From the NCBI GenBank assembly GCA_001972305.1, contig BDDD01002118.1, positions 62,001 to 126,000 on the forward strand: DNA of 64,000 nucleotides, given 5' to 3'. Below the pieces are notes generated by a model that had not been told where the DNA came from, searched no databases, and saw only the letters and a list, made by a program, of their open reading frames with translations. Every line of letters begins with the position of its first letter. Positions within the stretch are counted from its first letter, which is position 1. The position numbers and the translations under genes are program-made. This document shows positions 774-61,610 of the stretch, one piece after another. The DNA comes from Cephalotus follicularis. Its lineage: Eukaryota > Streptophyta > Magnoliopsida > Oxalidales > Cephalotaceae.

Positions 774-1824
774 TGAATAAACTTTAAAGAGAGAGAGTTA
801 GAGAGTTTGCAAACACGGTTTTAGAGTGGTTCGGCTTAACTCTTGCCTACGTCCACTTTTCCCAAGGATCTCCTTCAGTTTCCACTAGTCTCCGAATAAA
901 AATTCCGGGTGCTATTCGGTACACCTTTGTGATTGACCTCAATCACTTACAATTCTCTTTGGGTTCACTCCCCAATCTCTCTTAGGGTTCACTCCCCTAT
1001 TACAACAAAAGTGCAAAAGGAATAATGTTTGTTCTTAACCTCTCAAAGGTTGGATTTTACAAGATAATATCTCTCAATCTAAGTGGGAACAAAAATGAGC
1101 TAAGACACAATACAAGAGCTTTTGAAAGAGACTTGATGATTTTGAATGCTTGTATTGTTTTTGCTTGATTGATCTTTTTATCTATGTTCACTTGTATTCT
1201 TGTTATGTTCTCTCTTCGAAACTTCTTGTTTATAGTTGTTTCTTACTTCATAAACCCGTTGGATGTGTCTTGAAATTTGTTACTTCAAAAACGGCGCATT
1301 AAAACTCTGTCAGAAATTTTTCCAGCCGTGCAAAGCGTCGACAGTTTGCCTTAAAGTGTCGCCGCTTATATGACCGTTGGACAGTTCAAATTTGAATTGT
1401 ATGGTCAAAGCGCTGGCATTCTGTTATTTTGGAGTCGACCGTTTCCTCAAAGCGCTGACGCTTTGTGTTTAGCATCGCAGCTTTTGTCAAATTGATTGGC
1501 TCCAAGAAATCTCTGGTTTTAACTGCTGACAAATGGTGTCAAACCGCAGACGCTTTCATTTAAACCGCTGACGCTCTCATTTAAGCGTCAACGGTTTGGA
1601 CAGTTACTCTTTTCCTCGAAACGCTTCACCGGTTAACATTTTGTTCCTTGCTTCGACTGTTGCACAAAGCGCTGACGCTTACTTTCTGAGCGTCGACGCT
1701 TTAAGTTGTTTTTGTAATTTTCTTGTTGTTTTGCACATTCTATATTTTTCTTGCACATAAAGAAACTTTGCTAAAACACAAATATTTTATCATCAAAACT
1801 AGGATTGAGGCATAAATGTCAACA
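774..1824 (-). mobile_element. Solo LTR, SIRE-like Copia
   Basis: A 1,051-bp insertion running from TGAATAAAC to TGTCAACA with a perfect 5-bp TSD ACATT (769-773, 1825-1829). Read on the minus strand it starts TGTTGACATTTATGCC and then CAATCCTAGTTTTGATGAT, close to the start of the SIRE-type LTR at 58944-59174 (TGTTGACGATTAAG..). A single LTR with its own TSD means the internal region was lost by LTR-LTR recombination. It carries a GTCGAC-type palindrome array. Confidence 0.85.
1332..1702. repeat. Palindrome array, AAAGCGTCGACGCTTT dialect
   Basis: About a dozen imperfect copies of a 14-16 bp palindrome in roughly 370 bp. The best are AAAGCGCTGACGCTTT and GAGCGTCGACGCTTT; variants include AAAGTGTCGCCGCTT, AACCGCAGACGCTTT and AAGCGTCAACGGTTT. 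Spacing is irregular, so this is not a simple tandem repeat. It lies inside the solo LTR. Confidence 0.85.
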
Positions 1825-3178
1825 ACATTAACTCATTACGTCATAAACGGTATACAAAACATATTTCATAACATAATTTCTTTCGAAAACATCTTGTATG
1901 AGCTCTTTCTAAAGCTCGACTTTCCACGTTCATTCGTTTCCTGAAAATTTGTTTGAAAACCAAAAACATTGAAAGGAATGAGCATAAATAGCCTAGTAAG
2001 GTTTTCAAAATAACATACTTCATAACATTCCTTATCCTGATCATATCTCATGAATCAGAAAACATTTCATAAAAATGAGGGCCATAAAATCGTAAAGAAC
2101 TCCTTTCTGAACCACGCTTCACCGGGGCATTATGCACTCCACGATTACTATCCTTACATCACACGCATGTCCGTGAGCATGTCGCTCCATTATCCCTCTT
2201 TGGATCTCAATCCAAGAGTGGTTCATCTCAGTTCATTACATTTTTACATTTCATAAATCATTTCTTTGTTCTTTGAGTAATCAACTCAAAGCATTCATAA
2301 AAACAACATTATACAACAATTCTAAAATTGATATTTCATTTAGAAATGTTCATTTCTAGAGAAATATTAAAACATAAAAGTTAAAGTAGACATCTCAACG
2401 AATTTATTAGTATAAAGTTCATAAATTTTGGCTGAGGAACGAAGCTACAATAAATTTTTAAAGTTGTAGGTTCCATATAATTGCAGGGCATGAGCAGTAA
2501 TTTTGAACATAGATTTTCGTCAAGAAATTGATAGAATTCTGAAGTTTACCAAACACAATAGTTTTAGAGGGAATCTTAAGGTTTCCAAAACATTCAACTA
2601 TTTAAAATTTAATCAAGAAACGAATAAGTTATGAATAAAAGAAACTGCTGTAATTTATCAGAAGAAAATAGGACATTTCATACTTTAGAAAATGAGTAAG
2701 AATCCTTACTTTGCTTTAATTTCCTCATCTCTTACACTGAACTATTCTCAACAGAAATCTCTTTCTCTTCTCCTCTCCCTTTACTCAGTTGAATATCCTA
2801 AGGTTCAGCAGAAAACAACCTTCCTCGGCTAAAGCTACACATTCATATATAAAGAGTGAACTGGGGGTGCAAGCTTCTCTTTCTCATGATGATTTACCAT
2901 GCAGTCGCCCATGTGCTTAATTTCCTTCCTTTCATCAGATGACATTTGTCCTTGGTCATTATTTTAGTCTTGTCATTAGGATATATATCTGCAGTTTTCA
3001 TTCCCTATCTTGAAATGTGTCCCCTAATTAGTATAATTAACCCACAAAATGACAAAAGACTCGATTTAGTAACTGCTTTGCAGTCCAAAACATCGCTTTC
3101 CTCAGCTTGTCAAAGGTTTCCTTGGCTAATACATAGGTTAAGCACTGTCGCTTTCTACCACACTCATAGGATTTAGAG

Positions 3179-4250
3179 TGACAGCACTCGTTCCTACTCT
3201 GCTCTGGAAGATGTGCCCTGCAGGGATGGCGCACCACGCCAACTATCCTCTTTAAACAGAACTGCCCGAGCAACCAACTAAGGATCGCACCAGAGACGCG
3301 TTCATAAAAAGCCCGAGGAGAAAGCCTGGCAAAACATAACATAGGTGGGGTTTAAAAAGGGGCAGGGGCAAAGGAATCTCGAGGACTCAAACTCCCCGTT
3401 TTACTTAAGTCACCAACACTGCCTTCGCCAAGATCTCCAAAACGCACCGCATTACTAAATGCCCGAGAAGAACACCATGTGCTCCTCACATGCTCACTTA
3501 AAACTCCAAGGTCTGCATAATGACCGACCTGAACGCCAGGGCAGAGGACCCAAAAGTATTTACTGAGGAACCAAACTCACCATTTTACTTATGCCTGGGA
3601 TGCCCACATGCTCTCTGCACGTGCACACCTCACACCCAGGTCTGTTCACGCCCGAGGACACAGCTCCTCCATAGGCATTTCTCCTTTGGGTGCGTATTCC
3701 GAGGAATCAACATTGAGCCTCACATGCCTAACTTCTTAGCCATTCGAGGACTCCTCAACGAGTTTCACCCATCAACACATAACATCATCCTTTGCCATAA
3801 GAACCCAAAGTCATCCTCTGACTTTTATCCGAGGACTCCATCTTGAGCCCTATATACACATAAACCATCCGAGGACTCCCTGTCTCCTCGGTAAAACCAT
3901 TAAATACATATAAGCATCTCTCTCCATGCTCGGTCTTGCTATCCCAGGACTCCTTAGCTCCTCTAACGTTCTTGATAACAGAAAACTCATAACACCAAAC
4001 ATTCATTAAAAGACAAGGTAAATCTAGTCCAAGGACTGGAAACATCCATTTCTTTCATCAAAGTACTATTATAAAGCATGTTAGTCCTCTGACTGGAAAC
4101 ATACATTGCTTTCTCTATCAATAGAAAGAATAACACAAGTTTTCTTTCTATACATTAAAAGAATAATATAAAATCTCTTGCAAAACATAAGCTCTTTATC
4201 CTCAAATTTTCTTTAGGGTAAGCATATTTCCATAAACAATAACTTTAACA
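3179..4250 (-). mobile_element. Truncated family B LTR
   Basis: Starts TGACAGCACTCGTTCC and follows the complete solo LTR at 38107-40652 (TGTCAGGACCCGTTCC): both then show '..GGGATGGCGC..', '..CTGCCCGAG..', '..GAGGAGAAAGCCTG..' and '..GCACGTGCTCCTCAC..'-like blocks. It is rich in CCGAGGACTCC motifs. The far end is missing; the sequence changes to Tat element near 4250. No coding sequence. Confidence 0.6.
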
Positions 4251-5084
4251 AAAACTCCGGTTGCTACACGGGGACATGCTCAGCCCAACTTCGCGTAAGT
4301 GATCCTCAAAGACCATGGAGCTCACATCCTCGGGTGCCAGAGCAAAGAGCTTCTCTAGGTCAGCCCTCATATCCTCGGTCAAAATCATCCTCTGATTAAG
4401 GTGCACGGTATCCAAGGTGTCATACCATGGACAATGAGTGAAGCCAGAAAGGTTCTTGACCATGAAATACCTCCCCCTCCAGCCATTGACCGACTTGGTG
4501 TTCTCCATCAATAGCTTCTTGGTCTGACTCACGCGAGACTTGAAGTAGAAGCCACGCTTGTTGGGAGAGGAATTCACAATGTGGAACTCTTTGAATAGCC
4601 CCGCAATGGCTGTCACCCCTGTCTCCAGGCACATCACCAGGAAGCCAATGATGAATCCCTAGGACTGAGCTTGAAGCATTGATGGGTGGATTTGGTAATG
4701 CCTCATAATGGTTATTGCAAAGGATGGTAGAGGAAACCTTAGTTCGTGCTCCATAGCATCCAGGAAAACCACAAAGTGGTCGGGCTTGCTCTCCGTAACC
4801 ACCCTGGGGTTATTGGGAATCTCATAGTCCAGGCTGCTCGGGAAGGAGTAGTTTTTGGCTTACTCCTCCATGCTCCTCGGATGTAGCACGCTTTGCTAGA
4901 AATTGGTCCTAAATACTTGGACCTCGGCTTCAGTGGATGCAACGTCGGGAGCCCTAGCAGCAGTGGCCTTCATGTCCTCCTCGGCACTGAGAGGACGCTC
5001 AGCTATGGTAACTCCCACCGATACTTGGGCTACCTCCTTGGGACTTCTAATGAACCTCTTGGTTTGTTTGGTTCTAGCCATCAT
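4251..5084 (-). pseudogene. Antisense gene of Tat element (putative gypsy-type transposon protein), decayed
   Basis: Starts MARTKQTKRF, parallel to MVKTKQTARS at 16003. After in-frame stops it continues with CLETGVTAIAGLFKEFHIV, a run of lysine-rich residues and NLSGFTHCPWYDTLDTVH, matching CLESEVTATVGLFKEFHVI and NFEGFTPSIWCDSM in the other copy. This domain is the one found in plant proteins called 'putative gypsy type transposon' (Pfam Transposase_28, from memory); its function is not established. The gene runs opposite to the element's own direction. Broken by at least two stops, and the C-terminal half is missing at 4251. Confidence 0.65.
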
Positions 5085-35717: not shown

Positions 35718-35734
35718 ATTGGTATCAGAGCGGG
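35718..35734 (+). promoter_or_regulatory. Primer-binding site (tRNA-iMet) of the SIRE-like element
   Basis: ATTGGTATCAGAGCGGG directly after the LTR end, a full match to the usual plant iMet site. Confidence 0.92.
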
Positions 35735-42667: not shown

Positions 42668-44946
42668 TGTAACGCCCCCGACCCGAGCCCGCTAATAGCT
42701 CAAAGCGAACCTCGAGGATCGGTCGCGTTACGTTGGGTGTGAAACGTTACATCCTTTGGTACTCTTCTCTAACAGTACATTACATCATAAACTCATATCT
42801 TGCAACATAATACATAATCTTAAATTCAAACTTTACACATAATCATCTTATGTAAAGATGTCATAACCATATCGTTGGTCTACATATACACAGGATCATC
42901 CTTCTAGATAAACATATAATACAGCGGAAAAACTTTGTTCTTATTACATATCAAAACATTTATGCAAACATCATTGCATAGCCTTTCTTTCACAAAAACT
43001 CCTTCTTAAGAGCTTCCTCTAAACTCGTAATCTCCATTCATTCATTTCCTGAAAAAATTTTATTTGAAAACAACATTGAAAGGAATGAGCTCAAAATAGC
43101 TCAGTAAGGTGTTTTATAGTAAACACATTTCATCATAACATTTTTCTAGTAAATACATATAACTAGAACATTTCGTAAAGCATATCACTTTTCTAATTAC
43201 AAACTCGTAACTAGAACATTTCATAAACATAGAAGTCATAAAAACTTTAATGAACCCTTTACACCTCTTCACCGGGGCATTGTGCACTCCCCGACTACTA
43301 TCCTTACATCACATGCATGTCCGTGAACATCTCGCTCCATTAACATTGAGCATCTCGCCCCATTCCCCTTGGATCGCAATCCAAGGGAGGTTCATTCATC
43401 ATTTACTTTGAGTGATCAGCTCAAAGCATTCATAAAAATCATTTCATAACATTTCTTTCACAATTCATAAACCTTTCTCTTCATTTGAGTTATTGATTCA
43501 AATGAGTTCATAAAAACAGATTTGCATAGCTTTGCTAAAACTGATAATTCATATGGAAATAAGCATTTTCAGATAAAACTTAAAACATAAACATTAAAGT
43601 AGACCTCTTTAAAAATTCAGAAATCTCAAGATCATAATAATTGGTTGAGAATTGAATCCGTTATGAATTTTTGAAAGTGGCTGGTTCCATATGAAAACAG
43701 GGCATGATCAGTAAAATGAATCATTGATTCTCATCAAGAATTTGACATAATTTCGAGATACATAAAACATAACAGTTAAAGAGGACATCTTAAGGTTCTC
43801 AAAACATCCAACCATTTAATTTTTATCAAGAAACGAGCAAGATATGATTTAAAGAAGTTGCTGCATAATCGAGGAATAAAATAGTACCCAAACAGCAATT
43901 TAAAACATTGATTTTCATCAAGAAATCGATAGAATCTTGAAACATGCAAAGCATAACATTTAAAGAGGACATCCTAACGTTTCCAGAACATCCAATCATT
44001 CAAAAATTTATCAAGAATTGGGAAAGATATCAATAGAACAATCTGCTGCATAATTTTGAATCAAAACAGAGGAAGCTTTGACATAAATGGGTATAGAATT
44101 TCCTTACTTTGCCTTAGAATTTCTTTCTCTTTTGCTCTCCCACGAATTCTCCACTTCACTCTCAGCAGGAGCACTTTCTTTCTAAGCCAAAATGATTGAT
44201 TTCAACCCTCTTAGCCATTAAATAGAAGGATTACTTGGGAGGCAAGTCTTCTCCCCTTCTCACACAACTCAACTCTCTCTCTTGGCAGCCCATGTGATGA
44301 AATTCAACCAATCCAGGTGATGACACTTGTTAGATCATCTGATAACATTTCATATCATCCTCCTCTGGCATGCCACGTGTCCAAAATTAAATATTTTCAC
44401 TCACAAAATGCCAAAAAGTCAAATTTTGCATTTTGTCTGTAGCTCAAAGCGTCGACGTTTTCTCCCTAAGCGTCGCCGGTCACGGGCTTGACCTGAGTTC
44501 TCCACTTCTATCCTGACTAAAGCGCTGACGCTTTCTTACAAAGCGTTTCCGCTTTAAGCTTCGTCCAGGTCAACTGACACACTTGACTTCAACGCGTCGA
44601 CGTTTAAAATTAGAGCGTCGTCCGTTGCCCAAAGCGTCGACTCTTTTAATAAAGCCGTCAGCACTTTAGACATCTTTGTCAACTCTTAACTTTTTAGATT
44701 GACTCTTTCAACATGACATTCATCCAAAACAAATAACCAATTTCAATTTTCTTCCGGGGGCGCTGCCCTCGAGCCCTTGCCCGCTGACCGGGCAGCGGGA
44801 CCCTCCGTCCGCTCACCGGAGAGCGAAACCCCTGAAACCCCCAAGCGTAGGGTCATACTACGGGTCCCTTAAACTATTTTGCCAATTTACACAATAGCAA
44901 TCATTTTCCATAATTAATATCTTACATGGAAATTTGGGTCATTACA
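42668..44946 (-). mobile_element. Family A solo LTR nested in Copia LTR
   Basis: 2,279 bp, TGTAACGCCCCCGACCCGAG to TTTGGGTCATTACA, TSD CAATA (42663-42667, 44947-44951). The related LTR at 535 has the primer site at its left side, which gives the minus orientation. No coding sequence; carries the AAAGCGTCGACG array. Confidence 0.9.
44446..44669. repeat. Palindrome array, AAAGCGTCGACGCTTT dialect
   Basis: Eight motifs in 224 bp, among them AAAGCGTCGACGTTT, AAAGCGCTGACGCTTT, AACGCGTCGACGTTT and AAAGCGTCGACTCTTTT. The same two main variants (CGTCGACG and CGCTGACG) occur in the Copia solo LTR at 1332-1702. Confidence 0.88.
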
Positions 44947-45284: not shown

Positions 45285-45448
45285 TGTAACACCCATAAAT
45301 TCAATTTCATGTATTATTGTAATCCTCGATGTAATTTTTACCTTAAATTAATAAAAGGTGAATTTCCTGGTTGATATCTTGAATTTAAATTAACTTAGAG
45401 CATTTAGAAGTGTGATTCTAAGTATAATTGTGGGAATTTTGGCTTGGA

Positions 45449-45600
45449 CAGTCGACTGGTGCGATATACCAGCCGACTGTTGGGCTGAAGTGTGGGGCAG
45501 TAGACTGACGTGAGGAACCAGCCGATTGGCCAACTGTCGTGACACTTGGCAACAGACTTCCAGGTGAACAGCCGACTACCAGGGAAGGGCAGCCGACTAG
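45449..45600 (+). repeat. Palindrome array, CAGYCGACTG dialect (Tekay U3, first)
   Basis: Six motifs: CAGTCGACTGG, CAGCCGACTG, CAGTAGACTG, CAGCCGATTGG and two CAGCCGACTA. Matching array in the shared LTR at 58341-58491, where the decayed CAGTAGACTG reads CAGTCGACTG, so the ancestral form was the palindrome. Confidence 0.88.
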
Positions 45601-46389
45601 TTCATGCTCTATTTTTGTGACAAATGGTGAAATCACATGCAAACTAACATAGGAAGAGCATCTTCAGAAGCCATCACATGCAATAAAACGTGTTGAGCAT
45701 GCACCACCACGCCAGGACCTGCAAGGACAGAGGGGAAGAGAAGGGCCTTAGTACCATGCAAAAATGGGTTGAGGGAGAGGGGACTGCATAAATGCTCTCT
45801 TCCCTTCGTCTCTCTCACCCGGCAACCTAATAAGAAAGAACCAGAGAAATTGAGAGTGAAGATAGTGAGAAATTGAGAGAGAAGATAGTGAGAATTGAGA
45901 GGATTCTCCATTGTTAAGCTTGGAGCTCGGATTGGAGCTATTGGACTGTTCTTGGAGCTACTGGGAGGCTCAAAGATACTGGAAAGGAGACACAAAGAGG
46001 TGGACTTCCGATTTCTAACTTGAAATCAAAGGTAGGGGAAATGGTAGAGATTTTTATGCATTCATTTTGAGTTTAAGAGTAATGATATTATAAATGAATG
46101 GTGTAGTTGTTTGGCCATGGATTTCTGTATTAATGTTGTGGTTACTGTTAATGAATAACCTGACATGCACACTGAATTTTGGATGGAGTTTGGATTGGTT
46201 TTCATGCAATACCATGTTTGGATTTCATTTGAATTACAATGAAAACGGAGACTAACGCATGAATTGAGTTGTGTTTTAGACCAAAATATAACTACTGGTG
46301 ATATACTGAGGTCTGAATACGTGTGGATAGGTTTCAATTGCTTGTTGAATGGATTTAGAGGTGAATTACTGGTACTGTCCAGTCCAGAA

Positions 46390-46606
46390 CAGCCGACTGT
46401 TTAAGTAAGACAGTCGACTACTCAATCATCCAGCCGACTGTCAACTAAGAACAGTCGACTGTGCATGCGTTTTTGCCCAGAATAGTCGACTGTCGAAGGA
46501 AGACAACCGACTACTGATCACTCGTGATGAACAAGTCTACTGTTGGGGAAGAACAGTCGACTGACTCAAGGATCCAGCCGACTGTTATGAGAAAACAGCC
46601 GACTGT
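46390..46606 (+). repeat. Palindrome array, CAGYCGACTG dialect (Tekay, second)
   Basis: Ten motifs in 217 bp, alternating CAGCCGACTGT and CAGTCGACTG, spacing about 20 bp. This part of the LTR is deleted in the shared LTR. Confidence 0.9.
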
Positions 46607-47771
46607 TACAGCAGGAATTGGACCTTTAGACAAGGTGATAGGCCTAGGTTAATTACCAACAACCCTAGGTGCATTCTGAGCATATGTTTGCCCTGCATTT
46701 GAACTGCTACTGTACTGTAAATTGATTGTGGTTGATTACTGAATGTATTAACAATCTTGGAAAACTTGCATGATTATTATAATCATTTTGGGTAAGAAAA
46801 TGTATATTTGACAAATATAAACTTATATTTTCAAATGACTGGGAGAGTATTCCCAAAGACGGAGAAATGTATTGTTTCAAGTATTACAACTTATAACAAC
46901 CTGATAATGAAGTAATATATTTTAAACAAATATATTTTCATCAAGTAATCATATTTTGTTGCTTGACTTGTATTGTATTGTGTTTGTAAACTGTTGATTA
47001 CTTAGCCACTGTCCTAGCAACCTGCTGTTGGTTTAGCCGGCGTGCTATGCAACATACGGAGGACTTGCTCCAAGCCGTTCGTAAACGGGGATGGGGTAAG
47101 AGTGCATGACGTTGGGGCCAGGAGGTGGCGACGGTTATGACGACCTACTTGTCTGGTTCCTTTTGGGGACATACTTACTACCCGTGTTTGATATAACCTT
47201 ATAAGGTTATACCTGTACTGTGAAAGTGCATATGTTTTATATGTACGTACGGAGATATAATTACTGTGAAAATTACATGTCATACTTCATCACTATGCAT
47301 TCGTTCATGATACGCATTACCTTTGACCTTAAACTGTATACATAAACTTTTCTACTTAGCCGAGTGAGGACAAAGGCTAACCCCCTACTGTAACAAATTG
47401 ATGGAGTGGGTTTTGATATGGAGCATGCAAGGAGACTTAAAGAGAAGACTAAGTTATTTCTCTTATTTTATGTACTGGTTTACTGAACAATGACTATGAT
47501 AATTGGATTATTGTAACGTTGTTTATTTCTTTCGTACTGTATTATCAGGCTCCATTTATGGGCGATCGACTATGTTGTTGAGTTTTATATAAACTTTGTG
47601 GGTATCACGTAGTATGGGATGCGTGATACATATTTTAATTCAGCTTACTTCATGTTATTGCTTCCGCTATTGAAGGTTTTTGTTTTATGTGTTATCGCAT
47701 AAGCTGAATCATGTTGTGTTGATTGCCTTACCATTTAATGTTGTCGTCTCGAAAACGGGGGCATGACAGAG

Positions 47772-49072: not shown

Positions 49073-49646
49073 TGTCACACCCCATTTTCCAAACGACGCA
49101 TAAGTGGTAGCAATTAACACAATAATCCGGCTCATCCATTTTACGATAAATTTAAACCTTTTTAAAACAGATGTATCAGTTGCGAAAGCCTTTAAATATA
49201 ATCCGAACTAACAACGTAACACGCATCCCATACTGCGTGTTACAATATAACAATATCATTGTTAATTGCTCACGAAACAGAACGTGAGTTATCCTTCTTT
49301 TTATTCATAAATAACTCCCAAAAAGAAGTTCGCATTTATAATCAAAACCAAAACATTAATCCAAACCCATAATACAAAATTATCCAAATTGAACAAGTAC
49401 AATTTATCATCCTCTCCAACATGAGTAGGATTATCAAGATACATAAATAGCTTAAACAACCTTGAAATAGCAGCTCCCAAAATAGCCTTAACCGCACTTG
49501 TCCGAATGTCTCCGTCAATCTGAAATAGTAGGGGGTTAGCCTTTGTCCTCACTCGGCTAAGTATAAATACATTTCGGGATCAAGTAATGAATGACATGAA
49601 ATGAATGCATTCATGATGCAGTGCATAAATAACACAGGTTATACAA

Positions 49647-49648
<2 letters not shown>

Positions 49649-49678
<30 letters not shown>
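49649..49678. repeat. (AT)n microsatellite
   Basis: Fifteen AT units. Confidence 0.95.
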
Positions 49679-49681
<3 letters not shown>

Positions 49682-49784
49682 CCATACTTGGCAGTTCACG
49701 ACCATTCTGATAGCTACAACAAGACAATCCATTTTTCTCAGGTCACTAAGGACCCATCAAGCACAAACCAGGTGGATGCGTACA

Positions 49785-50005
49785 CACTGTGATTAGCACC
49801 CGGTCACTTTACACACATGTGATTTGTGACCCAATTACATTACACACAGTGATTAGTAATCATTCATAAGGGAGTCTCAACTATTTACACACATGTGATT
49901 TATAGTCACAAGGAGAAACCCTAACTACTTTACACACAGTGATTAGTAGCAAAAAAAGTGAAACCCCCAGTTACCTTACACACCATGATTAGTAACCTAA
50001 GGAAT
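49785..50005. repeat. Degenerate tandem block TTACACACAGTGATTAG
   Basis: Seven units with core (T)TACACACAGTGATTAGTA or its variant TTACACACATGTGATTTRT, separated by 15-40 bp. The two variants partly alternate. Not seen in the other LTR because of its deletion. Confidence 0.8.
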
Positions 50006-50370
50006 TCCCCACACCATCCCTTTAAAGTAAATTATTATGTATAAAGTACTTGACAATATTACATTTATTCAAAATGTATAGCTAGTCTTTTTGCACAGCA
50101 TTTAATCATTTGAAAATACTTATTTTCATATACATAATTTCAATATTTTGAAATCATTTTTACAATCCTTTTTGAAAAATATAAATTTTCAACCCCAACA
50201 TCATATACACATATCTCAAATCACATTATTTAAGAAATCATGCGATATCATAACAAATCAATTCACAGTAGTATGCAATGCAACCAAATGCTCAAACATG
50301 CCTAGAGACGTTCCTAGAATCGTTCAGGGCCAACAGGTCCAAATTGGGTCAAACCGTACAAACCAGGAGG

Positions 50371-50926
50371 AAAGACGTCGATGTCTTTCCTCAACGCGTC
50401 GATGTCCATTGCCCCAAAAGCATCGAGGTTTACCTTCAAGGTCAGTGCTTGCAACAGTGCAAATCACGTCGACGTCTTCCTGTAGACGTCGATGCCTACG
50501 GTCAAAATCCTTGGACATCAATGTTCTTCACAACGCGTCGACGTTTAAGGTAGGAACCTTAACACGTCCTCGCGTTATGAGCAAAACTTAATGCACAACA
50601 GACAAAGAAGTAAATGCCTTCCATAGACGTCAATGTTTAAGTGGTACCAGGTAGGTAACATTTCGTCCAATCTTCATTTACAAGGAAGAAAACATCCTCC
50701 ATTCACGCATGAAATTCCAGATACGTTACTCACAGTGTAACATGCACAACAGTTTATCCGCGTGTATAACCAGATCATCAACCCACCAGAAATCCAAAAA
50801 ATCCAGAAAGTAACATTTGCATTCTACAGATGTTTGAAATAGACATCGACACTTAAAAAGACGTCGACGTCTATTGCCTCCTCACACAAGGACATCGATG
50901 CTTATCAAAAGCGTCGACGTTTTAAG
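50371..50926. repeat. Palindrome array, GACGTCGACGTC dialect (first)
   Basis: Motifs include AAAGACGTCGATGTCTTT, AACGCGTCGATGTCC, CACGTCGACGTCTTCC, TAGACGTCGATGCC, AACGCGTCGACGTTT, AAAGACGTCGACGTCT and AAAAGCGTCGACGTTTT; more decayed ones carry TCGATG or TCAATG. Many contain GACGTC, a C-box type bZIP site. Confidence 0.87.
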
Positions 50927-51673
50927 AGTCCAAAACACTGTCTCTTTCGTTCTATCCACCAACAGGGGTACACAACCCTTATGCACATACAATCAAGCAT
51001 GGGATTCACCCAGAAATCAACATGCATGCATAATCTACGCCAAAAGGTGTTAAGATCATCAACCAAACATTTAGTTCAACTCCCAACAAGCATGCAATTC
51101 ATGCATTTAATCCATGGAAACACATTAACTTTGAACTCAAATATGTACATATAATTCCCCTACCTCTGGTTTCAAGTTAGAAACCTTGTAAGACCACCTC
51201 TTTGTGTTCCAGGAATTGGTCACAACAGCTTCAAGGATGTCCCATTGCTACAAGCTTTCAGCACCAAGCTCCCAAGCTCCACTATTTCAACAATGGAGGA
51301 AGTGTTTATCTCTCCTCACTGTTCTCCTCAACACTCAGGTGTTTTATCAAACTAGCGGGGAAGAGAGAGCATTTATGTTAGGGAACTCTCTCCCCTTTTC
51401 ACTATTCCCGTTGCATGCATTTGCAGGTTCCATTTCCCCATTCCCTTCTCTCCCCGTTTTCTTCTTTCTTTTTTGATCATTTCCTCTTTGTTTTCTGCAT
51501 TTGCAGATGAAGATGTGTGCCCTTTTCATGCACAAGGTTGAGGACACGTTCTGTTGCATGGCTGGTAACATTCCAGCATGCACAACACGTTGCATCTGGT
51601 TCCTGCAAAGGCCTTGGATTCCCTTCCCTTGCACGTTAGTCTGTCAGTTCATAACGTGAGTGATATTCTTCTC

Positions 51674-51829
51674 AAAGACGTCGACGTCTTCTCAAGATGT
51701 CGATGTCTTTTCCTCTTTCATACAAGGGCGTCGATGCCTTTGTCTGCATCAACGTGCATGTTCATGCATGTGAGTGCGCCCTGCGCTCCCATAGGCGTCG
51801 ACGTCTTTAAAAAGACATCGACACGTTTA
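51674..51829. repeat. Palindrome array, GACGTCGACGTC dialect (second)
   Basis: AAAGACGTCGACGTCTTCT, AAGATGTCGATGTCTTTT, GGGCGTCGATGCC, AGGCGTCGACGTCTTT, AAAGACATCGACACG. Counterpart in the other LTR at 54404-54558 with small differences, mostly at CG. Confidence 0.87.
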
Positions 51830-52029
51830 GCCCAAAACTGCATCATTTTGCCTCTAATTACATCATTTAGAATTTCTTTATTATCCCAATCATTCCCTCT
51901 TCCAAAATCTAACCTTTTAAGTTTTGGAAAGCATCACCTAGGTCAAAAGTTATGCCATTCCCATAAATTCAATAATAGTATTTCAATAAAATTGAAATAT
52001 TACATTGTGCAAAAATCTCAGGCGTTACA

Positions 52030-53696: not shown

Positions 53697-54759
53697 TGTC
53701 ACACCCCGTTTTCCAAATGACGCATAAGTGGTAGCAATTAACACAATAATCCGGTTCATCCATTTTACGATAAATTTAAACCTTTTTAAAACAGATGTAT
53801 CAGTTGTGGAAACCTTTAAATATAAGCCAAACTAACAACGTAACACGCATCCCATACTGCGTGTTACAATAAAACAATATCATTGTTAATTGCTCACGAA
53901 ACGGAGCGTGAATTATCCTTCATTTTAATCATAAATAACTCCCAAAAAGAAGTTCGCATTTATAATCAAAACCAAAACATTAATCCAAACCCATAATACA
54001 AAATTATCCAAATTGAGCAAGTACAATTTATCATCCTCTCCAACATGAGTAGGATTATCAAGATACATAAATAGCTTAAACAACCTTCAAATAGCAGCTC
54101 CCAAAATAGCCTTAACTCTCTCCCCTTTTCACTATTCCCGTTGCATGCATTTGCAGGTTCCATTTCCCCATTCCCTTCTCTCCCCGTTTTCTTCTTTCTT
54201 TTTTGATCTTTTCCTCTTTGTTTTCTGCATTTGCAGATGTAGATGTGTGCCCTTTGCATGCACAAGGTTGAGGACACGTTCTGTTGCATGGCTGGTAACA
54301 TTCCAGCATGCACAACACGCTGCATATGGTGCCTGCAAAGGCCTTGGATTCCCTTCCCTTGCACGTTAGTCTGTCAGTTCATAACGTGAGTGATATTCTT
54401 CTCAAAGACGTCGACGTCTTCTCTAGACGTCGATGTCTTTTCCTATTTCATACAAGGGCGTCGATGCCTTTGTCTGCATCGACGTGCATGTTCATGCATG
54501 TGCGTGAGCCCTGCGCTCCCATAGGTGTCGACGTCTTTAAAAAGGCATCGACGCATTTAGCCCAAAACTGCATCGTTTTGCCTCTAATTGCATCATTTAA
54601 AATTTCTTTATTATCCCAATCATTCCCTCTTCCAAAATCTAACCTTTTAAGTTTCTGAAAGCATCACCTCGGTCAAAAATTATGTCATTCCCATAAATTC
54701 AGTAATAGTATTTCAATAAAATTGAAATATTACATTGTGCAAAAATCTCAGGCGTTACA
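53697..54759 (-). repeat. 5' LTR of gag-only element, internally deleted
   Basis: 1,063 bp. Equivalent of 49493-51387 of the other LTR is absent; the join lies at AAC, which is present at both breakpoints. U3-region array kept at 54404-54558. Confidence 0.9.
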
Positions 54760-54764
54760 CAGTC

Positions 54765-56159
54765 GTTGGAGGTACACTGTATATTTATGGTTTTTCTGCT
54801 AGAGTATTAATGGACCCTGGAGCATCACATTCCTTTATTTCTTCACAATTTGCATCATACTTAGATGTAACGCCAGACTGTATGCCATACACCTTGGATG
54901 TGAGCACACCTGCTGGAGTTTCCATGTATACAGATACCGTATGTAGGAATTGTGAGATGTCTGTGGCAGACATTTCCTTGTATGCAGATTTGATAGTATT
55001 GCCCATCCGCGACTTCGATGTTATTTTGGGAATGGATTGGCTGTCAGCACATCATGCTTACATGGACTGCTATAGCAAGACGATTGATTTTTGTCTGCTC
55101 GATGGTACTATTTTCCAGTTTAAGGGAGACAAGGGGTTCTCTACACCGATTATATCCTTCATTCGTGCGTCGAAGTATCTCGAGAAGGGATGCGAAGGAT
55201 ATCTCGCTTACGTAATTGACCGAAGGAAAGAGAAGGGTTTGAGCCTGCAGGAGATCCTAGTGGTATGTGAATTTCCAGATGTAATTCCTGATGACTTGGG
55301 ATCTTTGCCACCGAGAAGGAATATGAAGTTTGTTATCGATCTTATACCAGGTATAACTCCTATTTCTAATGCACCGTATAGAATGGCTCCTGCAGAATTG
55401 AGGGAACTGAAACTGCAGTTACAAGATCTGATCGATAAGTGTTTTATTCGACCCAGTGTTTCTCCGTGGGGTGTGCCTGTACTGTTTGTCAAGAAGAAGG
55501 ATGGGTCGATGAGGCTCTGCATCGACTACAGAATGCTGAACAAGGCAACTATCAAGAACAAGTATCCTTTACCCCACATCGAGGATTTGTTCGACCAGCT
55601 GCAAGGAGCGAGAGTATTCTCCAAACTTGATTTGAGGTCAGGCTATCACCAGTTGAGGGTGAGGGAAGGAGTTATTGAGAAGACTTCTTTCCGGACAATG
55701 TATGGTCACTACGAATTCCTCGTGATGCCTTTTGGTGTTACCAATGCACCGGCTGCGTTCATGTCGTTGATGAACGATGTGTTTCGACCGTACCTGGATC
55801 ATTTTGTCGTTGTGTTTATTGACGACGTACTAGTATACTCAAGGAGTGAGGAGGAGCATGCTTGCCATTTGAGGTTGGTTTTGCAGATTCTCCGAGAGCA
55901 GCAGTTGTACGTCAAATTCAGTAAGTGTGAATTTTGGCTTGACCGTGTGATCTTCCTCCGTCACATTGTATCTGGAGAGGGTTTGGTGGTGGATCCGTCG
56001 AAGACAGAGGTGGTACGAGATTGGCCACAGCCGAAGAACGTAACGGAGGTACGCAGTTTTCTCGGCTTGGCGGGGTATTACAGGAGGTTTATCCAGAACT
56101 TTTCAAGAATAGTCGAGCCCTTGACTAAACTGACCCAGAAGAAGACCTTGTTTGTCTAG
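54765..56159 (+). pseudogene. Tekay protease and reverse transcriptase, copy 1
   Basis: Open from the nested element's TSD to TAG at 56157-56159. Protease site [13 protein letters not shown] and [15 protein letters not shown] motifs [95 protein letters not shown] and catalytic [12 protein letters not shown]. The Met at 54735 lies in the nested LTR and is not the real start: the protein is the middle of a Gag-Pol polyprotein. The closing TAG stands where Tekay pol usually has Trp. Confidence 0.93.
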
Positions 56160-58133
56160 GATGAAGATTGTGAAGATAGTTTCCGTGAACTAAAGCATCA
56201 GATAGTTTCCGCTCCTATCTTGGCAATAACTGAGGGTAATGAGGGCTTCGCGGTCTACAGGGATGCATAGGGTAAGGGCTTGGGCTGCGTGTTGATGTAG
56301 CGAGGCAGAGTGATTGCATATGCCTCGAGGAAGCTAAAGTCATACGAGGAGAACTACCTGACTCACGATCTTGAACTGGCAGCTATTATCTTTGCTCTTC
56401 AGAAATGGAGACACTATCTTTATGGGGCGCAGTTTGAGATCTTTACCGATCATAAGAGTTTGAGGTACTTGTTTTGTCAGGACACACTGAACATGAGACA
56501 GCACAGGTGGGTAGAGTTCTTTAATGATTATGACTGCAGTATCCAATACCACCCGGGGAAAGCGAATGTGGTCGCCGATGCCTTGAGCAGCAAGGCTAAA
56601 GTTTCTAGTACGATGGTGTCGCAATGGAAGATGTTAGAAGACTTCCAAGAGTGGTCTCCGTTTAATCAGGCACCGGGGATTTTTGTGGCCGACATGCGGG
56701 TCCAGCCAGTGTTACTGGATCACATCAGGGATGCACAACCACACGATCCGGAGTTGCAACGAAATCGGGAGAACCTGGAATCGGAATCCGATTTTCGAGT
56801 ACATGCTGATGGTCTTCTGAGATATCGGGGACGTGTGTGTCTTCCAGATGAACCAGGGTTGAAGAATGAGTTGCTTCGCGGGGCTCATAAATCTTTGTAC
56901 AGTATTCATCCTGGTAGCACTAAAATGTATCAAGATATGAAAAAGACTTACTGGTGGCCTGGCATGAAGCGCGAAATTGTAGAATATGTCACGAAGTGTT
57001 TGACTTGCTAGAGAGTCAAGGCCGAACACCAGAGACCGACAGGACTGTTGCAGTCATTACCAGTGGCAGAGTCGAAATGGGAACACATCACGATGGACTT
57101 TGTTTCTGGATTTCCACTGACTAGGCATTATTATAATGCCGTGTGGGTTATTGTTGATAGACTAACCAAATGAGCACAATTTTTGCCTACACACGTCACT
57201 GATTCAGCGAGCAAGTTGGCTCGATTATATGTGAAGGAGATTGTGAGACTACACGGTGTTCCGGTGAGCATCGTTTGTGATAGGGATTCGATCTTCACTT
57301 CCAACTTCTGGAAGAGATTTCAGACAGCATTCGGAAAAAGATTGAATCTCAGTACTACTTTTCACCCTCAAACAGATGGACAGTCAGAGCGTACCATCCA
57401 AACCTTGGAGGATATGCTTCGGGCTTGTGTGATCGATTTTGCTGGGACATGGGAAGACCATATTCCTTTGATAGAGTTTTCGTACAATAACAGCTATCAC
57501 GTGAGTATTGGTATGGCTCCATACGAGGCACTGTATGGGAGGAAGTGTAGGTCACCCATCTGTTGGGACGAGGTTAGTGAACGATCATTGCTTGGGTCGG
57601 ATTTGGTGGAGGAGACTTCGGAGAAAGTCAAGTTCATCAAGGAGAAGTTGCTAGCAGCACAGAGTCGGCAAAATAGCTATGTCGACAGTGTGAAGAGGAG
57701 GCCTTTGACCTTCAGTATGGGAGATCACGTGTTTTTGAAGGTATCTCCGTGGAAAGGGGTACAAAGATTCGGGAGGTAGGGCAAGTTAGCGCCACGCTAT
57801 ATTGGTCCTTTTGAAATTCTAGAGAGGGTTGGGGAAGTAGCTTATCAGCTAGCCTTGCCTCCTACATTGTCAAGTGTACATGATGTCTTCCATGTATCGA
57901 TGCTACAAGGTTATATCCGAGACCCATCACATGTCTTGGATTGTGACTCGGTTACGGTGAGGGATGATCTTTCTTGCGAGGAGTCACTCGTTAGAATCCT
58001 AGATAGGAAGACACAAGTATTGAGGAACCGAACCATTCTGATGGTAAAGGTTCAATGGCAGTTTCATCGTCCGGATGAGGCAACTTGGGAACGGGAAGAG
58101 GATATTCGGGAGAGTTATCCTCACTTGTTTTAG
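56160..58133 (+). pseudogene. Tekay RNase H, integrase and chromodomain, copy 1
   Basis: RNase H: VIAYASRKLKSYEENYLTHD, ELAAIIFALQKWRHYLYGAQ, FTDHKSLRYLF. Integrase: zinc region (GAHKSLYSIHPGSTKMYQDM, YWWPGMKREIVEYVTKCLTC), core Asp in [10 protein letters not shown], second Asp in IVCDRDSIF, Glu in GQSERTIQTLEDMLRAC; GPY/F-type RYIGPFEILERVGEVAYQLA. Chromodomain-like end: ILDRKTQVLRNRTILMVKVQ, WQFHRPDEATWEREEDIRES, YPHLF stop. The chromodomain guides integration to chromatin in this clade. Stops at 56268, 56299, 57009, 57171 and 57777 break it. Confidence 0.92.
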
Positions 58134-58160
58134 TATATGTAAATTCGAGGACGAATTTCT

Positions 58161-58340: not shown

Positions 58341-58491
58341 CAGCCGACTGGTGCGATATACCAGCCGACTGTTGGGCTGAAGTGTGGGGCAGTCGACTGA
58401 CATGAGGAACCAGCCGACTGGCCAACTGTCGTGACACTTGGCAACAGACTTCCAGGTGAACAGCCGACTGCCAGGGAAGGGCAACCGACTG
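58341..58491 (+). repeat. Palindrome array, CAGYCGACTG dialect (shared LTR)
   Basis: Six motifs matching 45449-45600: CAGCCGACTGG, CAGCCGACTG, CAGTCGACTG, CAGCCGACTGG, CAGCCGACTG, CAACCGACTGG. Better preserved than in the first LTR. Confidence 0.9.
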
Positions 58492-58943: not shown

Positions 58944-59174
58944 TCGATGTCTTTTGGTACGGACGTCGATGCCAATACTGGAAGAGCGATGTTTTCTTTG
59001 CAGTTAGTCCTGTACAAAAGGCGTCGATGCTATTTGGAAAGAAGTCGACTTCTTTTTCTGCAGATTTGTTTTTTAGACTTTGATATTCAACTTGTAATTC
59101 CTTGCCCATCAAGTAACTTAGTTAGATGCAAATATGTTATCATCAAAACAAGGATTGAGACTTAATCGTCAACA
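58944..59174 (-). repeat. Partial 3' LTR of SIRE fragment
   Basis: 231 bp, near identical to 61380-61610. Contains TCGATGTC, GGACGTCGATGCC, AGGCGTCGATGCT and AAGAAGTCGACTTCTT. The left break joins TGGACTTC of the Tekay LTR to TCGATGTC inside such a motif. Confidence 0.88.
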
Positions 59175-59197: not shown

Positions 59198-59800
59198 AAA
59201 AATTTGCTCAAAAGGCCTGAATAATAAGTGATGTCAATTGAAGGGATTATAAGTGAATTGTCAAAAGAAGCATTGTAAATAAGTTGCAATAAACATAACA
59301 ATGCAGAAACAAAGAGTTGAGCCTGCATAAGTGACATATCTCCCCATTTGCAATGCAATTCTCCTTATAATGCATAAATTTTCATTTTTCTCCGCAAACA
59401 AGAATTCTAACATAAATTCTTCCTTTGAGCCATTTAACATTTATACCATTCTCCCCCTTTTTTGTATATCATCAAAAAGATCCTACAAGGGCAGAAAATT
59501 ATCAGCTCCCCCTAAATAACAGCAGGGGTTAAAAAATTACAAAGGCTCATAATATCGGAAATGACGAAAATAAAGAAAAATTGAGAGGACATAATCATTC
59601 AAAGCAATTACATCAGAAAATCATTCACATAATTATAAACATAATTCATAAAACACAATCATAAACACAATTAACATAAACATTTCATTAATATCATCAA
59701 ATTAAACTTGTTCATTACAATCAAAAGAAAAACAATGAACATGAGGGTTCATAGCAACATCAAAACAACAATCAAATTTAAAACAAACAACATCAAAACA
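59198..59800 (-). other. 3' non-coding stretch of SIRE fragment
   Basis: AT-rich, no coding sequence seen. Another purine run (minus strand AAAAAAGGGGGAGAA, near 59450-59464) resembles a second internal polypurine tract. Confidence 0.6.
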
Positions 59801-60338
59801 TCAAGACTCAGCAGGAGTGGAATCATCGGATGCGGATTCATCTCCCGAAGTCTCTTCACATTGATCAATTGTCTTTGATTGAGCGAGCTTCCTTTCCATC
59901 CTCTTTAATCGTCTCTTCGTGACCTTTAAATCATAAAAGATTGTGCCATCAATGTGTTGGAAGTCCTTTTGAATAACTTTAAGATCACCTTCCAATCGAT
60001 TGAGCCGAAACCATTTTTAGGTTAGAGTAAAAATCTTTAACCAATTTTATGTAAAAAGGGTTAGAGATTTGGACAAGGGGAAGTAAATGTAGGTCATCTA
60101 ACCATGAAACAAAAGAGAATTCGGAGGAACAGAAATCAAAATCTATGTTTCTGCCTCCCATGACCCATTTTTCAACAAAACTTAGGGTTCTAATTGGGAC
60201 AGGGTGTTCGGATGAGGAATCGGAGTGGGAAGACTCAGAAGATGATTCCCTAACCTCTAATCTCTGCTTTTTAGCAGATTTCTTTGGTTGAGAAGACGAG
60301 GGAGCCTGCTTTTTGGTAGCTCGTTTTGTCCTCGGCAT
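59801..60338 (-). pseudogene. SIRE-type 3' ORF, N-terminal part and tail
   Basis: Starts MPRTKRATKKQAPSSSQPKK with a basic, possibly nuclear-localising N-terminus, then a Ser/Glu run (RESSSESSHSDSSSEHPVPI), FVEKWVMGGRNIDFD, WLDDLHLLPLVQISNPFYIK, LVKDFYSNL. After a frameshift near 59990 it ends with a coiled-coil-like, charged tail (LKVTKRRLKRMERKLAQSKT) and stop at 59801. It stands behind pol, where SIRE elements carry an extra ORF. The middle part (compare 35735-36326) is missing. Function unknown. Confidence 0.6.
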
Positions 60339-60542
60339 ATTGACAAACAGTTTGTGAGCACAAGGTGAAGATACACGGATTGACACAAACATAGGATTTG
60401 GACAGACGAAAGACGATGTTTGTAGAAGAAAAGAGATAGGAGATGATTTACGATCAACTTAGAACGATTTTTGAAGAAAAACAGAAAGATTGGAAAATAT
60501 TTGAAAAGCCAGAAGAGAGAGGGAAAGTGAGAAATGAGCAAA

Positions 60543-60822
60543 ATGTCGACTTTTTATGAAGAAGTCGAGTTCTGGGGAAAAGACGTCGACGTGATTCCAA
60601 AAGGAGTCGACGTGATTTTAAAATAGTGCTATAAAAACGGTGCGTTTTAAAAGGGATCGACGCATTTGAAAAAGAGGTCGACGTGTTTTAGAAAAACACA
60701 TAGGGATCGACGTTTTTCAAAAAAAGTCGACGGCATTTTCATAAGATACACGTTTTCCAGAAAAGGAGTCGACTCTGTTTTGCAAAGCACAGAAATTCCA
60801 GAAAAGGAGTCGACGTGTTTTA
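60543..60822 (-). repeat. Palindrome array inside SIRE, between RNase H and 3' ORF
   Basis: Ten GTCGAC or ATCGAC motifs in 280 bp, such as AGACGTCGACGTGATT, AGGAGTCGACGTGATT, GGGATCGACGCATTT, GAGGTCGACGTGTTTT, AAAGTCGACGGCATTTT and GGAGTCGACTCTG. Each is followed by a T-rich run, which gives a direction. The only array seen outside an LTR. Confidence 0.88.
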
Positions 60823-60961: not shown

Positions 60962-61345
60962 TTAGAAAAAAGAATTCTCATCTAAGGGCTTGGTAAAGAT
61001 ATCCGCCACTTGTTTTTCGGTGGGAAGATACTCTAACATAATGTCACCAGATTCTACATGTTCTCTTAGGAAATGATACCTAATGTCAATGTGTTTTGTC
61101 CTAGAGTGATGGACAGGGTTCTTGGCAAGGCAAATACTACTAGTATTATTACACTTAATAGATACATCTTTAACATAAACACCATAATCAACCAATTGTT
61201 GCTTTTGCCAAAGAATTTGAGCACAACAACTACCAACATCTATATATTCAGCTTCAGTGGTGGATAAAGCTACTGAATTTTGCTTCTTGCTAAACCAAGA
61301 TACTAGCATGCTTCCTAGGTATTGGCATGAACCACTAGTACTCTT
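60962..61345 (-). pseudogene. SIRE-like Copia RNase H
   Basis: STSGSCQYLGSMLVSWFSKK, QNSVALSTTEAEYIDVGSCC, AQILWQKQQLVDYGVYVKD, IKCNNTSSICLAKNPVHHSR, TKHIDIRYHFLREHVESGDI and VADIFTKPLDENSFF. Very close to the SIRE lineage. It is open for its whole visible length, about 125 codons, and is cut at its start by the N at 61346, so the upstream DxD region and RT are absent. Cleaves the RNA strand during cDNA synthesis. Confidence 0.9.
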
Positions 61346-61346
61346 N
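61346..61346. other. Ambiguous base (N), probable collapsed assembly gap
   Basis: The only N in the window. RNase H ends and an LTR with a different orientation logic begins exactly here; several kilobases expected between them are missing. Confidence 0.85.
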
Positions 61347-61610
61347 ATCTTGAAAGTAGTCGACGTCTTCTGGAAGTAGTCGATGTCTTTTGGTACGGAC
61401 GTCGATGCCAATACTGGAAGAGCGATGTTTTCTTTGCAGTTAGTCCTGTACAAAAGGCGTCGATGCTATTTGGAAAGGAGTCGACTTCTTTTTCTGCAGA
61501 TTGGTTTTTTAGACTTTGATATTCAACTTGTAATTCCTTGCACATCAAGTAACTTAGTTAGATGCAAATATGTTATCATCAAAACAAGGATTGAGACTTA
61601 ATCGTCAACA
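61347..61610 (-). repeat. Partial 5' LTR of SIRE fragment
   Basis: 264 bp, near identical to 58944-59174 with 33 extra bases at the inner end containing AGTAGTCGACGTCTTC. The outer end GTCAACA meets the Tekay LTR (TGTACGTACGG) with no TSD. Confidence 0.86.

Follow-up and report, generated by a model that had tools for sequence, protein, structure and literature searches.

Results

Palindrome arrays of six retrotransposon families

The stretch of Cephalotus follicularis DNA analyzed here (the window; 64,000 nt) holds elements of three mutually related Copia families (SIREa, SIREb and SIREc) and of three Gypsy or Gypsy-like families (A, T1 and T2), all of which carry arrays of GTCGAC-centered palindromes (Table 1). 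T1 has the Gypsy domain order protease-reverse transcriptase-RNase H-integrase (Pfam), with a C-terminal end of pol that we take to be of the Tekay type, and T2 has a Gypsy gag; family A is called Gypsy-like on the basis of its termini and the primer-binding site of a relative. The second LTR of T2 (53697-54759) lacks 1.9 kb. The T1 and T2 LTRs, which are of different dialects (see below), both have an array on each side of the TATA-like box, and in the SIREb LTR the array occupies positions 165-671 and the TATA-like box lies at 715. The open frame of SIREb is 91% identical to Cephalotus proteins over frame residues 60-240; a direct Pfam scan of this frame gave no PF20167 match. The SIREc linker array, listed with the other element arrays in an earlier reading of the sequence alone, is indeed a SIRE array of dialect c, but it belongs to no LTR and sits between the end of pol and a broken env-like gene.

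Table 1. Elements, arrays and coding regions of the window.
Feature	Position	Strand	Remarks
SIREa	774..1824	-	Sirevirus-type solo LTR; flanking target duplication ACATT; TATA-like box at LTR position 590
SIREa array, dialect a	1332..1702	-	LTR 123-493; 10 sites by dialect scan
SIREb 5' LTR	34446..35717	+	PBS 35720; TATA-like box near 35161
SIREb 5' LTR array, dialect b	34611..35117	+	18 sites, mainly four-site runs at 20-22 bp
SIREb open frame	35604..36323	+	contains C-terminal part of b-type PF20167 protein
SIREb 3' LTR array, dialect b	37085..37518	+	
Family A	42668..44946	-	solo LTR; target duplication CAATA; Tekay-like termini; without coding sequence
Family A array, dialect a	44446..44669	-	
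T1 5' LTR (Tekay-type Gypsy)	45285..47767	+	PBS-like match 47772
T1 array 1, dialect b	45449..45600	+	upstream of TATA-like box
T1 array 2, dialect b	46390..46606	+	downstream of TATA-like box
T2 3' LTR	49073..52029	-	gag-only Tekay relative, nested inside T1
T2 array 2, dialect c	50371..50926	-	
T2 array 1, dialect c	51674..51829	-	upstream of TATA-like box
T2 array 1, other LTR	54404..54558	-	
T1 protease, reverse transcriptase, RNase H, integrase, chromodomain-like C-terminal end	54726..58136	+	Pfam, frames
T1 array 1, 3' LTR copy	58341..58491	+	
SIREc array, dialect c	58944..59053	-	in truncated 3' LTR
SIREc PF20167 gene, c-type	59799..60347	-	broken: two open pieces in different frames, middle gone
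SIREc linker array, dialect c	60543..60822	-	between pol end and PF20167 gene
SIREc array, dialect c	61354..61490	-	LTR piece at upstream end of SIREc

Abundance and spacing of the palindromes

Among the 64 six-base palindromes, GTCGAC has the highest ratio of observed to expected occurrences in the window (50 vs. 5.0), and 200 shuffles of 500-bp blocks with dinucleotides preserved gave a mean of 5.1 ± 2.3 and a maximum of 12. Clusters of at least three GTCGAC per 500 bp number seven in the real sequence and zero in all 200 shuffles; three real clusters have at least five. The arrays described in the sequence-only reading are therefore real, and a comparison with shuffled sequence, here within the window, places them far above chance: its intervals contain 47 of the 50 copies, a further copy (61359) begins 1 base ahead of an interval, making 48 in or at the edge, and those at 24594 and 57681 lie outside all of its arrays. 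By exact GTCGAC alone the smallest arrays are weak (p = 0.029 for T1 array 1 in either LTR; p = 0.05 for the array in the SIREc 3' LTR); they rest on near-matches.

The same reading had called the arrays irregularly spaced, which is wrong: 45 of the 70 adjacent gaps in the window measure 19-22 bp, or roughly two helical turns, as against 6.3 ± 2.4 (maximum 15 in 5000) under random placement. Exact doublets occur genome-wide 48,687 times for dialect b (reversed control, 166), 188 times for dialect a (control, 0) and 91 times for dialect c (control, 0). Among the places listed, the period is 19-22 bp in 57 of 69 for b, 42 of 50 for a and 50 of 50 for c; a second mode at 27-28 bp, off the helical repeat, accounts for 12 of 69 listed. 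This near-fixed spacing persists genome-wide though the spacers vary highly. Where gaps are long, phasing is weak (Rayleigh test, p about 0.01 for a 10.2-bp period and 0.083 with a free period).

Three dialects, each common to a Copia and a Gypsy-like family

Distances between arm profiles are 0.30 bits for SIREa-A, 0.41 for SIREb-T1 and 0.33 for SIREc-T2, and at least 0.65 for all remaining family pairs. A dialect-neutral choice of sites left the nearest partners unchanged, and 0 of 5000 permutations paired the families equally well, which upholds the earlier proposal of three dialects, each belonging to one Copia and one Gypsy-like family. The occurrence in Tekay-type Gypsy LTRs of dialects that match SIRE arrays is new here. 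The strings first given for the dialects were idealized: exact AAAGCGTCGACGCTTT has no occurrence in the window and exact GACGTCGACGTC has three, in T2 only and absent from SIREc; genome-wide, AAAGCGTCGACGCTTT is found at 3552 places vs. 5 for the reversed control. The SIREc dialect is loose, outer arms of AAA...TTT are common to dialects a and c, and the commonest b variant, GCCGAC, which breaks the palindrome, is found in both SIREb (7/18) and T1 (7/15). Sharing across unrelated superfamilies holds for the Copia-Gypsy pairs, but the gag of T1 and that of T2 match at 75% and the SIREs are kin, so not every one of the six families counts as independent.

Arrays upstream of env-like genes

Each dialect also directly precedes env-like genes (PF20167) of a diverged subtype particular to that dialect, an arrangement that is likewise new here. 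PF20167 is Transposase_32, a putative plant transposon protein, and the proteins of the c types (71.4 and 81.8 bits) and the b type (67.9 bits) score above its curated cut-off of 45; the a type, represented by 139 open residues from a broken gene, scores 23.9 bits (E = 4.3e-5), below that cut-off, and across 170 residues its identity to the c type is 27%. The Tekay-type Gypsy families of the window yielded no PF20167 frame.

At least three clustered sites stand within 900 bp upstream of c-type genes in 57 of 60 loci, and at least three CAG-type sites stand upstream of b-type genes in 12 of 14 (two sites in one, none in one), with gaps of exactly 21, 19, and 22 in 9 of the 14. At a locus picked by palindrome alone (L003), an a-type gene is found right behind an a-dialect array; two further a-type genes were inspected, one of which (L084) is without a-type sites. 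Models trained on Gypsy LTRs only assigned the linker arrays of c-type genes to T2 (56/57, the lone exception going to A), those of b-type genes to T1 (13/13) and the single a-type array scored to A (1/1). The match between subtype and dialect may be simple common descent within the SIREs because only three lineages support it; with the dialects taken as single events, a three-pair match would arise by chance in one of six arrangements. In 59 aligned c-type linkers, motif cores were better conserved than their surroundings for six of seven reference sequences, above every circular shift.

This conservation bears on whether the arrays are without function and reflect a mutation bias or the neutral growth of tandem repeats. 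When the LTRs of a single element are compared with each other, motifs are kept no better than spacers, as neutral growth would have it (motifs, spacers and outside, respectively: SIREb, 5/160, 3/274 and 3/211; T1, 6/60, 1/92 and 26/580; T2, 6/90, 4/66 and 15/490); the conserved cores of the c-type linkers, the pairing permutation test, a spacing held in three dialects with varied spacers and reversed controls far below the real doublet counts make this explanation exceedingly improbable.

Exchange between families and RNA folding

Exchange of LTR blocks, suggested in the sequence-only reading, is unsupported: with motifs masked, spacers of SIREa-A (p = 0.545) and SIREb-T1 (p = 0.455) are no more alike than shuffles, and SIREc-T2 is marginal (p = 0.035), a level that a non-partner pair surpasses (0.025). 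Very short pieces may have been exchanged between partner families, which have doublet-sized matches, such as one of 31 bp (90%) and one of 40 bp (82%). A fuller account, in which template switching or gene conversion carried one or two palindromes, spacer included, from Copia to Gypsy LTRs or back and tandem growth followed, function being optional, draws on these matches, on the marginal SIREc-T2 value and on tandem units about 73% alike inside SIREb; it is improbable, given the unlike spacers of the other two pairs, the near-fixed spacing amid highly varied spacers and the three separate events required.

RNA dimerization, also raised at the outset, is disfavored, as the TATA-like box lies downstream of the LTR arrays of SIREa and SIREb and of the first T1 and T2 arrays; on its side, the second Tekay arrays follow that box, and eight of nine arrays fold better than shuffles as RNA (z −2.0 to −7.1), although such folding is expected of any palindrome array. 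In maize, the LTR palindromes of Sireviruses are reported to be where small RNAs are concentrated (Bousios 2016, as related in PMC5311732 and PMC10760457), which would suit hairpins for small-RNA production. A role as RNA in either form nevertheless appears very unlikely, since it predicts neither the near-constant spacing nor the dialect matching, and the palindrome-breaking GCCGAC is common to both b-dialect families.

Discussion

The SIRE arrays are Sirevirus RM (repeated motif) boxes with a variant core. As described in the portions of Bousios et al. (2010; PMC2829016) used here, RM boxes, published without an identified binder, are high-copy palindromes with an element-specific consensus and a CpG core, located upstream of the TATA box in the LTR and upstream of the env-like gene in 77 of 79 linker copies. 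The Vitis box CGGTCGACCG contains GTCGAC. Membership asks for at least eight palindromic boxes with dyad symmetry per element; by dialect scan SIREa has 10, SIREb 18 and SIREc 15. The SIREa and SIREb arrays are likewise clustered in the upstream LTR half, with the TATA-like box close behind (the SIREc LTR is truncated), and boxes recur before the c- and b-type env-like genes. The published core, however, is CGG-CCG in 12 of 13 Sirevirus elements (Tnd-1 being without it) and the core here is GTCGAC, so the SIRE arrays are filed as a variant rather than a typical member. RM boxes were called Sirevirus-specific from a Copia-only comparison (PMC2829016); here they have counterparts in Gypsy LTRs, and the arrays of T1, T2 and A resemble them in working, yet their carriers (Gypsy in the case of T1 and T2) are not Sireviruses. 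Those portions of the paper mention neither spacing nor any link of dialects to env-like subtypes, and they do not name the env-like protein as a binder. Maize Sirevirus palindromes are also clustered in the LTR regulatory region but, as far as the same two maize papers were drawn on, are of a single kind, without matched protein subtypes, and are read via RNA structure and small RNAs (PMC5311732; PMC10760457); the maize palindrome is also the commonest motif of Helitron structured regions (PMC10760457), which hints that elements of no common origin may share it.

It is likely, judging from the sequence patterns, that some protein binds the arrays. The idea of a family-specific binder like VANC, encoded by element or host, fits the spacing, core conservation and subtype match best of the three put forward in the sequence-only reading, and the best reading is that PF20167 proteins, or host factors, bind in a VANC-like manner. 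In the sections consulted of PMC5735166 and PMC10398659, VANC proteins are element-encoded and their targets are arrayed short motifs in noncoding element DNA that differ among related VANDAL families; here dialects track PF20167 subtypes, the a type from one scored locus. VANC6 motifs also occur in AT9TSD1, an unrelated element (PMC5735166). VANDALs, in contrast, are DNA transposons, and the carriers here are retrotransposons; VANC motifs (YAGTATTAY, AGTTGT(C/A)C) are non-palindromic, unlike these arrays, and VANC binding and demethylation were shown by experiment (PMC5735166; PMC10398659), whereas the present arrays are known from sequence. VANC and PF20167 are likened by motif layout, not by protein sequence.

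The arrays would then be putative cis-regulatory targets of sequence-specific DNA-binding factors, each SIRE lineage holding one dialect in its LTR and again directly before its env-like gene. The PF20167 protein, probably as one dimer per palindrome with neighbors about two helical turns apart, would read the dialect of its own lineage and switch on or de-silence the LTR and its own gene, as VANC acts on VANDAL; we infer activation or anti-silencing as the effect. Tekay-type Gypsy families with matching arrays would use the SIRE factor in trans. PF20167 as the array-binding protein is a candidate identification held with slightly less than even confidence, as is the combined proposal of cis-regulatory targets that the lineage's own PF20167 protein reads and Gypsy families exploit. 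A sunflower Athila PF20167 protein is predicted to be nuclear, according to the part of PMC11728184 cited.

Paralogous host transcription factors that differ in arm preference could instead bind the dialects, Copia and Gypsy LTRs having converged upon shared activators and the env-like gene having a similar internal promoter. The arrays do precede TATA-like boxes, Gypsy arrays would be accounted for without borrowing, and Bousios et al., in the portions cited, suggested that host factors linked to stress are at work and that the env-like gene has an internal promoter, though they report no common known binding site (PMC2829016). Host factors alone leave the match of one dialect to one PF20167 subtype unexplained, and we regard this account as rather unlikely.

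What the env-like gene does in plant retroelements was called unproven and controversial in 2010 (PMC2829016, in the portions cited). The location of each dialect before its own PF20167 subtype suggests that the protein may read the code and that other elements may borrow it. A broader and more tentative claim, which we put forward as a doubtful but real possibility, is that the "envelope-like" PF20167 proteins of Sireviruses are lineage-private, sequence-specific regulators rather than envelopes, exploited by Gypsy elements, with at least three codes in one genome. The role of the env-like gene and the identity of the RM-box binder become one question, to be put as three proteins vs. three dialects, and the three dialects provide a built-in control for specificity. 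If the binding is true, retrotransposons would have a VANC-like private code, and one superfamily would be exploiting the regulator of another.

Structure of the Retrotransposon Nest

The window contains nested LTR retrotransposons, including three Sirevirus (Copia) elements (SIREa, SIREb, and SIREc), two Gypsy elements of probable Tekay type (T1 and T2), and the Gypsy-like solo LTR of family A.

LTR retrotransposon features of the window
Feature	Position	Strand	Description
SIREa	774-1824		Solo LTR; target duplication ACATT
SIREb			Short Sirevirus; C-terminal part of a PF20167 (env-like) protein in the only frame for which a relative was recognised
SIREc		minus	Fragment; order: LTR piece, pol end, array, broken PF20167 gene, polypurine tract, start of 3′ LTR
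T1	45285-47767 (LTR)	plus	Gypsy element, probably Tekay-type
T2		minus	Gag-only relative of T1, nested within T1
Family A	42668-44946		Solo LTR; target duplication CAATA
Further LTR pair	14524-15381 and 25180-26055		RNase H-type domains in between

Family A appears to be Tekay-like, an assignment made on non-coding features (its termini and a relative's primer-binding site near 518). The LTRs of T1 and T2 share a TATA-like box, a 53-column block at 87%, and weaker anchors in matching order; each has one palindrome array upstream and one downstream of the box, with dialects that differ between T1 and T2. The open frame at 35604-36323 in SIREb matches a Cephalotus protein over residues 60-240 (91% identity), and all 120 matches listed are from Cephalotus. 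The further LTR pair carries no array, with a single GTCGAC over the whole stretch; within it, a frame at 16230-16874 matches Pfam PF04195 (putative gypsy type transposon; E 6.7e-9).

Several structural details were also observed. A lone N at 61346 marks the junction of the SIREc LTR piece and pol end, which may be an assembly join instead of a real deletion. Between 58178 and 64000 the SIREc fragment splits the T1 3′ LTR, which resumes at 61611 and leads on to a second internal region of T1 that has a primer-binding site of its own at 62141, as in one LTR common to two tandem copies. The T2 LTR at 53697-54759 lacks 1.9 kb present in the T2 LTR at 49073-52029, with short microhomology at the break, and 8162-10797 and 38206-40652 form an inverted pair of related stretches (77–86% identity over ~2.5 kb).

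Abundance and Spacing of the Palindromes

GTCGAC occurs 50 times in the window against 5.0 expected, the highest ratio among the 64 six-base palindromes; 200 shuffles of 500-bp blocks with dinucleotides kept gave 5.1 ± 2.3 (maximum 12). The sequence-only reading had described dense arrays in these elements, and this clustering is borne out: seven clusters of at least three GTCGAC per 500 bp were found in the real sequence and none in any shuffle, and 47 of the 50 occurrences fall inside the intervals first described, with one at an edge and two elsewhere.

The sites are also closely spaced. Among six-base palindromes, GTCGAC ranks first for neighbour gaps of 19–22 bp (10, runner-up 1), and 11 of the twelve top non-palindromic six-base words for such gaps overlap the GTCGAC motif or its variant, while the remaining one, TCTTCT, has 4 such gaps. 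When sites were picked with the patterns of the three dialects (a, b, and c, arm variants around the GTCGAC core), 45 of 70 adjacent gaps measured 19–22 bp, compared with 6.3 ± 2.4 under random placement (maximum 15 in 5000). Doublets were counted across the 1.577-Gb Cephalotus follicularis assembly with the reversed pattern as control: the b dialect, as CAGTCGACTG-N(0-30)-CAGTCGACTG, was found at 48,687 places (166 reversed), the a dialect, AAGCGTCGACGCTT, at 188 (0 reversed), and the c dialect, GACGTCGACGTC, at 91 (0 reversed). The period was 19–22 bp in 57 and 27–28 bp in 12 of the first 69 b doublets, with no others; 19–21 bp in all of the first 50 c doublets; and, among the first 50 a doublets, 19–22 bp in 42, 18 or 23 bp in 2, and 31–36 bp in 6. 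Exact b doublets are commoner by hundreds-fold than those of a or c, and show a second mode at 27–28 bp. A distance of about two helical turns suggests that neighbouring sites lie on the same face of the DNA; strict helical phasing is not claimed, because long gaps are weakly phased and the 27–28 bp mode is off phase.

Dialects Common to Copia and Gypsy Elements

Three dialects of this dense palindrome system are common to Sireviruses and Tekay-type elements. The pairs originally proposed (SIREa with A, SIREb with T1, and SIREc with T2) were recovered from dialect-neutral sites (at most one mismatch to GTCGAC) compared solely in the arms flanking the core: the closest family to each SIRE element was its named partner, at 0.30, 0.41, and 0.33 bits vs. 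at least 0.65 elsewhere. Over the LTR and element stretches, 30 of 39 neutral Gypsy-like sites and 31 of 37 SIRE sites were assigned to the partner, a result unmatched in 5000 permutations. The pairing claim stands on this arm comparison and permutation test; a second-choice core, GCCGAC, is also common to pair members (7 of 18 SIREb sites, 7 of 15 T1 sites), in sites whose choice by dialect patterns biases towards pairing. Chance or composition as the source of the arrays is ruled out by the GTCGAC excess, the shuffles, and the pairing permutations. Elsewhere in the assembly, one locus (L004) carries two a-dialect arrays ~1.1 kb apart (117-303 and 1366-1505), a layout like that of T1 and T2, and does not match the window's families.

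Exchange of whole LTR blocks, offered earlier as an origin of the sharing, found no support. With motifs masked, the spacers of SIREa-A (p 0.545) and SIREb-T1 (p 0.455) were at the level of shuffled spacers; of the 15 pairs tested, SIREc-T2 gave 0.035 and A-SIREc, which are not partners, 0.025. Partner elements have matches of doublet size only in common. Block exchange between partner LTRs is unlikely; single doublets may have been exchanged and have then multiplied in tandem. The arrays might conceivably act as RNA, since eight of nine form more stable folds than their shuffled versions, with z from -2.0 to -7.1, the exception being the first T1 array (z -0.5).

Evidence on motif conservation is divided. 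In 59 aligned c-type linkers (the array between pol and the env-like gene), core identity exceeded every circular shift for six of seven reference rows, despite the CpG in the core, with sites defined on the reference rows and so biased towards conservation. In comparisons of an element's two LTRs, no purifying selection on motifs was seen, their conservation being no higher than that of spacers or the rest, and this result speaks against the claim.

Association with PF20167 Env-Like Genes

Downstream of pol, the env-like position of these SIRE elements is occupied by PF20167 genes, of which three subtypes were met. For the b type, reached via SIREb, 109 matches were scored out of 12,597 first-look candidates; for the c type, reached via SIREc with two queries, 96 and 95 out of 15,276 and 15,268; and for the a type, met at L003, a locus that was among four selected solely for their a-dialect palindrome, 150 out of 8,828, all these totals being candidates, not confirmed genes. 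Identity is 20–24% between b and c types and 27% over 170 residues between a and c. In IMG/VR, a pattern scan returned no matches, and a profile scan returned 51 pattern matches with no confirmed relatives.

Arrays accompany these genes. At c-type loci, at least three clustered sites lie within 900 bp upstream in 57 of 60 and at least three downstream in 47 of 60. Among 14 of the 109 b-type genes listed, a search of 600–800 bp upstream of each found at least three CAG-type sites in 12, two in one, and none in one; the exact gap series 21, 19, 22 recurs in 9 of 14, and three of four downstream flanks carry CAG-type arrays. Two further a-type genes were inspected: L083 has a-type sites and L084 has none in a stretch whose position was estimated and which may miss the array. 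When upstream arrays were scored with models trained on the window's Gypsy-like LTRs only, c-type arrays were assigned to T2 in 56 of 57 cases (one to A) and b-type arrays to T1 in 13 of 13, after loci with under two sites (three of c type, one of b type) were dropped; the single a-type array, from L003, with sites partly selected by the a-dialect pattern, was assigned to A. Because each subtype was sampled by similarity, all these tallies represent three lineages. By this comparison, the three dialects match the three PF20167 subtypes.

Candidate Binding Proteins and Relation to Known Systems

The likeliest mechanism, put forward tentatively, is that PF20167 proteins bind the arrays. Lysine- and arginine-rich stretches open the full-length c-type proteins as well as the a-type piece, as might befit a nuclear protein; in sunflower, a PF20167-like protein of an Athila element has a predicted nuclear location (PMC11728184). 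The closest functional parallel is with VANC proteins (PMC5735166, PMC10398659). Binding by host factors is a less probable, putative alternative. Bousios et al. (2010; PMC2829016) found no common binder of the palindromic RM boxes, the repeated motifs of Sirevirus LTRs, and considered host stress factors. In maize, the Sirevirus palindrome also ranks as the most frequent motif in structured Helitron regions (PMC10760457).

The study by Bousios et al. (2010; PMC2829016) covered 13 Sireviruses, whose RM boxes lie upstream of both the TATA box and the env-like gene. Because RM boxes are already described in Sireviruses, the SIRE half of the system is a variant of a known feature, here with a GTCGAC core. 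A literature search, mostly of papers outside subscription, found none that connects the boxes with an env-like protein or with Gypsy LTRs; relative to the literature so covered, carriage by Gypsy elements and the match of dialects to env-like subtypes are what these arrays would add to the known RM-box biology of Sireviruses.
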